A stretch of DNA of 64,000 nucleotides from contig JAAFIV010000003.1 of NCBI GenBank assembly GCA_013298775.1, forward strand, positions 62,001 through 126,000, given 5' to 3'. This DNA is from Ignavibacteria bacterium (GTDB lineage Bacteria; Bacteroidota; Ignavibacteria; Kapaibacteriales; UBA4661). Below the pieces are notes generated by a model. That model did not search any database. It was given only the letters and a program-made list of their open reading frames with translations, and was not told the DNA's origin. The position numbers were made by a program, and so were the translations under genes. This document shows positions 5,519 through 56,154 of this stretch, in pieces. The number at the start of each line of letters is the position of its first letter. Position 1 is the first letter of the stretch.

Positions 5519-5596
5519 AGTGGCACAGACATTCTTGTCTGTGAGTGTTGGTGCGGGTTTCAAGCGAGAAACACAGGCAAGAATGCCTATGCCACT
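5519..5596. repeat. family A palindromic element (copy A2)
   Basis: Two inverted 25-bp arms at 5519-5543 and 5572-5596. The left arm carries the family core CACAGACATTCTTGTCTGTG, itself a hairpin with 8-bp stem and TTCT loop; the right arm has diverged by a few bases but still pairs. It lies 75 bp upstream of fmt. Confidence 0.85.
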
Positions 5597-53888: not shown

Positions 53889-54569
53889 TTACGCAGCAAC
53901 GCAGTAGGTTTCGTAAATACCATCCAACAGCAGGTTGATAGCGTCGGCGGCTTCCCGTGCGGCTTCCAGCGCGACGTTTTGTTCCTTTTCGGTCGGACAC
54001 ATCCGCACGAGTGCTTCGCGGGTTACGCGGCTGTGAATCACGTCTGCTTCTTCGTGAACGCGGAAGAAAATGAGCGCATTGTCTGAGGTGAGACCGTAGC
54101 GGGTTTGTAAGCCGTGAATTTTCGTTTTTGCAACGTCGGGGATTTGCATTTCATACGCATATAACGCCGCCAAGCCCTCTGCAGGGTTTTTGCGTCCCGA
54201 AAGTTCGCGTAAGATGCGCACGGATTCTTTTGTTGTGGGCAGGTATTTCGCCGTTTTTACTTCCTCGCGCGAAACGCCCAGCGATTCAGCAAAACGCAAC
54301 CACAATTCAGGATGATTATTCGGTCCGTGTTCTTCTTCGATGAGATTTTCCAAGAGCATTTGCCGCACGTCCATGTCCTCGCAGTTCGCATGGGTCGCGC
54401 TCACAAACGTTGGAAAATAATAGACTTGCCAATAGTATTGCTTGGCGTATTCGCGGAGCATTTCCATCGTGAGTGTGCCTTCGTTCCACATTTGGTAAAA
54501 GGGATGCTCCAGCATTTTGCGTTCCAAAATGACGGTATCTAAGGAATTAAGGAATGATGCGCTTTCCAT
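53889..54569 (-). CDS. CADD-family diiron protein, probable pABA synthase
   Basis: 226 residues from ATG 54569; an open frame further upstream only reads through a family A repeat. It belongs to the TenA/PqqC-like haem-oxygenase fold and lines up with Chlamydia CADD at a constant offset of two: metal ligands Glu79, His86, Glu140, His172, Asp176, His179 (CADD 81, 88, 142, 174, 178, 181), with Tyr25, Tyr41 and Lys150 at the places of CADD Tyr27, Tyr43 and Lys152. CADD makes p-aminobenzoate from its own side chains and replaces PabABC. Folate role here is inferred. Another TenA-like role is possible but less likely. Confidence 0.85.
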   Translation of the reverse strand: MESASFLNSLDTVILERKMLEHPFYQMWNEGTLTMEMLREYAKQYYWQVYYFPTFVSATHANCEDMDVRQMLLENLIEEEHGPNNHPELWLRFAESLGVSREEVKTAKYLPTTKESVRILRELSGRKNPAEGLAALYAYEMQIPDVAKTKIHGLQTRYGLTSDNALIFFRVHEEADVIHSRVTREALVRMCPTEKEQNVALEAAREAADAINLLLDGIYETYCVAA

Positions 54570-54902: not shown

Positions 54903-55886
54903 TTATTTTTTCTTCGCTGGAGCTGCTTTTTTTGCTGCCGGAGCCGCGCCACCTTTATTGCCAGAAAGGAATTCCGACCAGGTGTAATCTTGCGGCATTT
55001 TGCGACCTTCTTGCGCCAATTCAATCAAATATTTCGCAGCGTGTTCCAGTACCCACTCGAAATTTTCTGGCTGAACCGATGATGCTTCTGCGTCTGGTGC
55101 GGGGTTCAAGAAGTCAATCGCGTAGGGAATATCATCTTGTACGGCAAATTCAATCGTATCGAAGTCGTAGCCGAGCGAGTTTACGATTTTCGCGCAAAGT
55201 TCTTCGAGTTGTTTTTTGCGGGCTGGCGTGAGCGTGAAATCCGCTACATAGCGCAAGTGGTGCGGGTTGCGGGGTTCGTAGGGCATGATGTGGAAATACT
55301 TTTTGCCAATCGCGTAGCAACGGTAGTATTCAGTAAAGTCCACGCCTGCTTGCAAGGTCATACAAATATCGGCGGTTTTGTGATATGCCTCGAAGAATTC
55401 TTGCGCATTATTCACTTTGTACACGTGCTTCCAACCGCCGCCGTCATGCGGTTTCAAGAATGCTGGAAAACCAACATACTCGAAAATTTCTTCCCAGTTA
55501 AGCGGGAACATAAGATTCCGCATTGATTCGCTGGTGGTGGTCGGCGGATGGTCTTTCGTGGGCAAAAGTACAGTGTTGGGAATCGGTACGCCGATTTGCG
55601 AAGCCATTGCGTAGTTGAAAAATTTATCGTCCGCGCTCCACCAGAAGGGGTTATTCACAACGCGCGTACCGTTCAACATCGCATTTTTCAGCATGGAGCG
55701 GTAGAAGGGAATATCTTGCGAAATGCGGTCGAGAATGACATCGTATTTCATCAAATCTGCCATTTTCACACCACCAATTTTTACAAACTCAGCACGAATA
55801 CCGTCTGGAGCGGTACTGTTGATGCGCTCTACAAGCGCGGGCGGGAAAGATTGTTCCATCCCAAAGAGCAAACCAATGACTTTCAT
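54903..55886 (-). CDS. ATP-grasp family protein of unknown specificity
   Basis: 327 residues from ATG 55886 (MKVIGLLFGMEQSFPPALVE). ATP-grasp features: PAFLKPHDGGGWKHVYKV (glycine-rich P-loop-like segment), DFTEYYRCYAIGKKYFHIMPY and the metal motif DTIEFAVQDDIPYAIDFLNPAPD. The tail is a lysine/alanine/proline stretch (GGAAPAAKKAAPAKKK) like histone H1 tails, perhaps for binding nucleic acid or anchoring. RimK-like ligases add amino acids to a carboxylate; the substrate here is not known. It is upstream of the CADD-like gene on the same strand, 333 bp away with repeats in between. Confidence 0.82.
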   Translation of the reverse strand: MKVIGLLFGMEQSFPPALVERINSTAPDGIRAEFVKIGGVKMADLMKYDVILDRISQDIPFYRSMLKNAMLNGTRVVNNPFWWSADDKFFNYAMASQIGVPIPNTVLLPTKDHPPTTTSESMRNLMFPLNWEEIFEYVGFPAFLKPHDGGGWKHVYKVNNAQEFFEAYHKTADICMTLQAGVDFTEYYRCYAIGKKYFHIMPYEPRNPHHLRYVADFTLTPARKKQLEELCAKIVNSLGYDFDTIEFAVQDDIPYAIDFLNPAPDAEASSVQPENFEWVLEHAAKYLIELAQEGRKMPQDYTWSEFLSGNKGGAAPAAKKAAPAKKK

Positions 55887-56154
55887 AAGAAAACCTTTGC
55901 GTAAAAAAATGAACAAAGAACTGTGATTTGAATGACCTGTTTTTATGTCCTCATTATCTCACAAACACTAGAAGGGAAGAGGTTTGCAGAGATTTTTACG
56001 AAAAATTGTCGGATAATTCCGAACAGAATGTTGATGACGCTTGAAGAATTTTTTAGCACACGTTCTGAACACAGGCGCAAAGATATAAAAATGTTGGTAG
56101 AAACCTGATGTATTGCAGGAAAAAAATGAAAAATTTTTCAGAAAACTTGAGCCT

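Follow-up and report, generated by a model that had tools for sequence, protein, structure and literature searches.

The closest described systems are CADD of Chlamydia trachomatis (CT610) and NePabS of Nitrosomonas europaea (NE1434), two enzymes that have been shown to make p-aminobenzoate (pABA) from a tyrosine and a lysine of their own, in a reaction that uses O2 and a dimetal centre (PMC11965152, PMC13108848). The roles of Tyr27, Lys152, Tyr141 and Tyr170 of CADD have been confirmed, and in the F148Y variant of NePabS the metal pairs Fe/Fe and Mn/Fe are reported to be about equally effective (PMC11965152). Since NE1434 had been recognized as a CADD-type enzyme of a free-living bacterium (PMC11965152), both the family of the protein described below and a free-living carrier are already known.

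In the stretch of 64,000 nucleotides analysed here (the window), an open reading frame on the minus strand, running from an ATG at 54569 to a stop at 53889 (53889..54569), encodes a protein of 226 amino acids that belongs to the CADD/PabS family, an assignment based on its TIGR04305 score, its active-site residues, the match of its structural model to 1RCW and the purifying selection acting on it. The score against TIGR04305 is 279 bits, over the curated cut-off of 200 and across the full length of the model (212 of 212 positions), and the identity to CT610 is about 39%; this resemblance to the CADD family is far beyond chance. Membership in the PqqC, BesC or TenA families was considered and discarded, because the model scores fall far below each cut-off. 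The best match in the PDB by sequence is 9pj4, with the title "4-aminobenzoate synthase", and with the predicted structure (pLDDT 92.7, from a set of 21 sequences from the window and the loci compared with it) the top hit of Foldseek is 1RCW, the structure of CT610 (E 1.3e-14, rmsd 1.9). Family score, residues and fold thus agree with the initial annotation, which had called the protein CADD-like, and the gene very probably encodes a self-sacrificing pABA synthase, a predicted heme-oxygenase-like dimetal oxygenase.

The alignment of the window protein to 1RCW has no gap before residue 180, and for this reason the numbering of the two proteins differs by a constant two. The conserved residues, compared position by position (CADD first), are Tyr27 and Y25, Tyr43 and Y41, Glu81 and E79, His88 and H86, Tyr141 and Y139, Glu142 and E140, Lys152 and K150, His174 and H172, Asp178 and D176, and His181 and H179. 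Six of them, three histidines and three carboxylates (E79, H86, E140, H172, D176 and H179), correspond to the metal ligands of CADD and would form the dimetal site. These six ligands, together with Tyr25, Tyr41 and Lys150, are the nine residues that had been matched to CADD at an offset of two in the initial annotation, and all of them were recovered; a substitution that it did not mention is that of CADD Tyr170 by Phe168. The residues equivalent to the sacrificed tyrosine and the amine-donor lysine are therefore in place, and their codons, computed from the start of the reading frame at 54569, lie on the minus strand at 54495..54497 (Tyr25, the predicted sacrificed tyrosine) and 54120..54122 (Lys150, the predicted amine donor). 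Y25, Y41, Y139, K150 and the six ligands are invariant in 51 of 51 orthologue rows, among which some genomes are represented twice, and the combination Tyr139/Phe168 is found in 50 of the same rows. An orthologue on a contig of a Neomarinimicrobiota MAG (L083, 1646-2299) has tyrosine at the Phe168 position, which is the CADD-like pattern.

Given that every required residue is present, the chemistry shown for CADD and NePabS may be extended to the window protein. The dimetal site would activate O2, and a radical would then be relayed through aromatic residues to Tyr25, whose side chain would be cut out and oxidized to the benzoate, while Lys150 would donate the amine. The excision of Tyr25 and the donation of the Lys150 amine would limit each protein molecule to a single turnover. 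An active synthase of the CADD/NePabS type is the best reading of the residue identities. As for the metals, Tyr139/Phe168, an order-wide combination adjoining the metal site, is the pattern of the NePabS F148Y variant, and by this analogy the Kapabacteria enzyme is predicted to tolerate naturally both Fe/Fe and Mn/Fe, which would place it between CADD and NePabS.

The host genome is a 5.19-Mb draft (99.2% complete), and the nearest public relatives of the protein come from Candidatus Kapaibacterium and from MAGs labelled 'Ignavibacteria', the closest with 96% protein identity. The host itself belongs to Candidatus Kapaibacterium (Kapabacteria), consistent with its earlier placement in the Bacteroidota group. 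The nearest MAG, PH2015_12D, presumably comes from the river-mat study PMC6776057, as suggested in part by its name. TIGR04305 is matched over its cut-off in 45 of the 61 genomes that represent the genus, the family and the order. In a sample of 198 genomes from the whole phylum 14 exceed it, 13 from the same order. The six distinct CADD proteins of the genus form one clade (97/90) beside those of other members of the family, which indicates vertical inheritance; CADD is thus an order-wide, vertically inherited protein of Kapabacteria. Divergent relatives that score 72-150 bits, under the CADD cut-off, occur in six further genomes (G011, G013, G020, G022, G029 and G049). A Microcoleus MAG has a 61% identical orthologue (L082, 5168-5836) on a contig where the neighbouring genes look cyanobacterial, and this orthologue is either a cyanobacterial CADD or the product of a transfer.

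The role of CADD in the order can be examined through the distribution of the folate genes. Chorismate-binding enzymes, counted by PF00425 (which covers PabB, TrpE and MenF), are missing from 41 of the 61 genomes. Outside the window's own genus CADD is present in 39 genomes; 33 of these 39 have no chorismate-binding enzyme at all, and about 30 of the 33 have both FolP and FolK (the FolK match of one of them, G023, being partial), two enzymes present in nearly all Kapabacteria outside the genus. Three genomes that have no CADD (G027, G039 and G053) have a PabB over the curated cut-off, and this exchange supports CADD as the source of pABA for folate in the order; one genome (G018) has both. Based on gene content, it is well supported that CADD is the only source of pABA for folate in most Kapabacteria genomes. 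Other genomes, for example G034, G044, G057 and G060, have FolP and neither CADD nor PabB, and presumably take up pABA. The literature search found no paper joining Kapabacteria with folate; as far as that search reached, the order-wide role of CADD in Kapabacteria is new, and so is its retention in a genus that has no FolB, FolK or FolP.

That genus is the one to which the window belongs. The host genome has only two chorismate-binding proteins: a TrpE-like protein, which scores 425 bits with the TrpE model (cut-off 518) and 260 with that of PabB-clade2, and an isochorismate synthase (MenF), whose gene adjoins a menD-like gene; PabB is absent from this genome. Among the eight genomes of the genus, all drafts and five of them 97-99% complete, FolC is found in all eight (348 bits in the host), GlyA in seven, and FolE is also retained. 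FolP, FolK and FolB are found in none of the eight; for FolB the queries came from both E. coli and Kapabacteria, and they detect it in G008, G009 and other genomes. The PF00809 matches in the genus lie in reading frames of 430-970 amino acids, the size of methionine synthase, and the single match of the host, which was considered as a possible FolP, was identified with family models as a MetH cut by the end of a contig. FolE was also set aside as evidence of folate synthesis, because both copies in the host (GTP cyclohydrolase I; L190 and L191, on contigs C2 and C17) are accompanied by further genes of pterin or queuosine metabolism: one belongs to a QueD-QueE-QueC-like queuosine cluster, and the other has a gene of the PTPS family beside it.

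Bacteria that salvage folate in its intact form are recognized by the lack of both FolK and FolP (PMC1971073), and by accepted criteria the members of this genus are folate salvagers, in which the salvaged folate is probably glutamylated by FolC. Matches to folate transporters of the BT1 family were weak, partial and of a general transporter type, none of them convincing. Methanopterin was excluded as a consumer of pABA, as far as it requires beta-RFAP synthase, since this enzyme (TIGR00144) was found in none of 14 genomes. The initial annotation had regarded the absence of pab genes in the presence of folP and folC as making a strong case, and had proposed that the protein extends the pathway to this bacterium. 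The absence of PabB and the presence of FolC stand, but FolP is missing, as are FolK and FolB; the extension of the pathway is supported for the approximately 30 relatives in the order that have CADD, FolP and FolK and no chorismate-binding enzyme, but not for this genome. In this genome pABA almost certainly does not enter folate through the known FolP route.

Any explanation of why CADD persists has to take into account how it evolves within the genus. It is present in six of the eight genomes and missing from two (G003 and G007, both 99% complete), from which it follows that it is not essential there. Synonymous sites are near saturation between species, and where they are unsaturated the pairwise dN/dS of CADD is close to 0.04, with a range of about 0.03-0.06; between the window and L066, dN is 0.14 for CADD and 0.22 for mnmE. 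The low dN/dS and the catalytic residues, invariant in six species, imply that selection kept the synthase after the loss of the folate branch that consumed its product. The notion that CADD is a leftover, neutral or decaying since that loss, would account for the two genomes that have none, but it conflicts with such values of dN/dS between species whose synonymous sites are almost saturated, and with complete catalytic residues in six species; it is already disfavoured and we consider it very unlikely. Less credible still is that FolB, FolK and FolP are present and were missed by the assemblies, so that folate is made normally with pABA from CADD: the genomes are indeed drafts, but all three genes are missing from eight of them, five 97-99% complete, and their former neighbours are found alone. 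In the sister genus an IMPase gene precedes folK by 73 bases (L087) and a PAP2 gene adjoins folP (L061), whereas in the host the IMPase gene is kept and followed by an unrelated gene in place of folK (L188), and PAP2 stands without folP (L187).

It has also been considered that CADD still feeds de novo folate synthesis, with FolB, FolK and FolP replaced by proteins of other families. The strong purifying selection on CADD and the conservation of FolC, FolE and GlyA are in line with this proposal, and there are precedents for the replacement of individual folate enzymes (PMC1971073); nevertheless, it requires the replacement of three consecutive enzymes, both FolE copies of the host have other likely jobs, and the joint loss of FolK and FolP is the salvage mark mentioned above. 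It is therefore unlikely, although the least unlikely of the rivals. The fold and its residues could instead have been recruited in the genus to another oxidation, or to a regulatory or binding role, as the chemical diversity of the HDO superfamily (PMC13108848) and the lack of a visible pABA consumer in the genus would allow, but the sacrificed tyrosine and lysine are invariant in the genus and make this improbable. The preferred reading is that the genus has lost the late pterin and folate steps and that selection has retained CADD, the most likely reason being that pABA serves some other purpose or goes to neighbours. We would give even chances to this reading as a whole (an active CADD/NePabS-type synthase in a genus that lost FolB, FolK and FolP, with pABA used otherwise or passed on), and other use or export of pABA in the genus, taken separately, is roughly a toss-up. 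Slightly better than even is the broader proposal that a costly, suicidal synthase under strong selection, in the absence of the known folate enzymes that use pABA, points to an unrecognised use of pABA (as a metabolite of the cell itself or as a good traded in cyanobacterial mats) or to novel late folate enzymes. Three readings of the fate of pABA remain: conversion into a different aromatic compound, export to partners in the mat that supply folate in return, and entry into folate through non-homologous FolB, FolK and FolP.

The surroundings of the gene vary. Directly upstream of CADD lies a gene for an ATP-grasp-like protein (54903..55916, minus strand), with no Pfam match and a weak match to the RimK family (26 bits). 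It is linked to CADD in the window, in L065 and in the sister genus (L072), where it is 87% identical and also adjoins CADD, and not elsewhere; in L066 and L084 a different, GSP-synthase-like ATP-grasp gene occupies the same place. There is no conserved neighbour of CADD across the genus, and this inconstancy led us to reject the operon context as a clue to the use of pABA. The intergenic regions also carry a dispersed palindromic element, GGCACAGACATTCTTGTCTGT, usually as inverted pairs whose starts are exactly 51 bases apart. The window has 10 copies (0 expected), at 5522, 15994/16045, 43892, 45212/45263, 47656/47707 and 54618/54669, the last pair lying a short distance upstream of the ATG of CADD; the element is also present in L002, L065 and loci of G005.

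In a whole free-living order, then, a suicide enzyme takes the place of PabABC, often in genomes with no chorismate-binding enzyme at all, which means that organisms other than parasites can evidently afford to spend one protein on each pABA. A genus that keeps costly CADD without FolB, FolK and FolP poses the concrete question of what other uses pABA may have. Compared with the known systems, the window protein shares with CADD (PDB 1RCW) the fold (rmsd 1.9), the six ligands and the equivalents of Tyr27, Tyr43, Tyr141 and Lys152, but has Phe168 where CADD has Tyr170; its gene, unlike that of CADD, has no adjoining folate genes, and its host does not live as an obligate intracellular parasite and belongs to a genus without FolB, FolK and FolP. 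The relatives PqqC, BesC and TenA have in common with it the heme-oxygenase-like fold, with scores far below their family cut-offs. With NePabS it shares a free-living host, the sacrificed Tyr25 and the lysine, phenylalanine at the position of CADD Tyr170 and a gene outside any folate operon, whereas Phe148 of NePabS corresponds to Tyr139 in the window protein.
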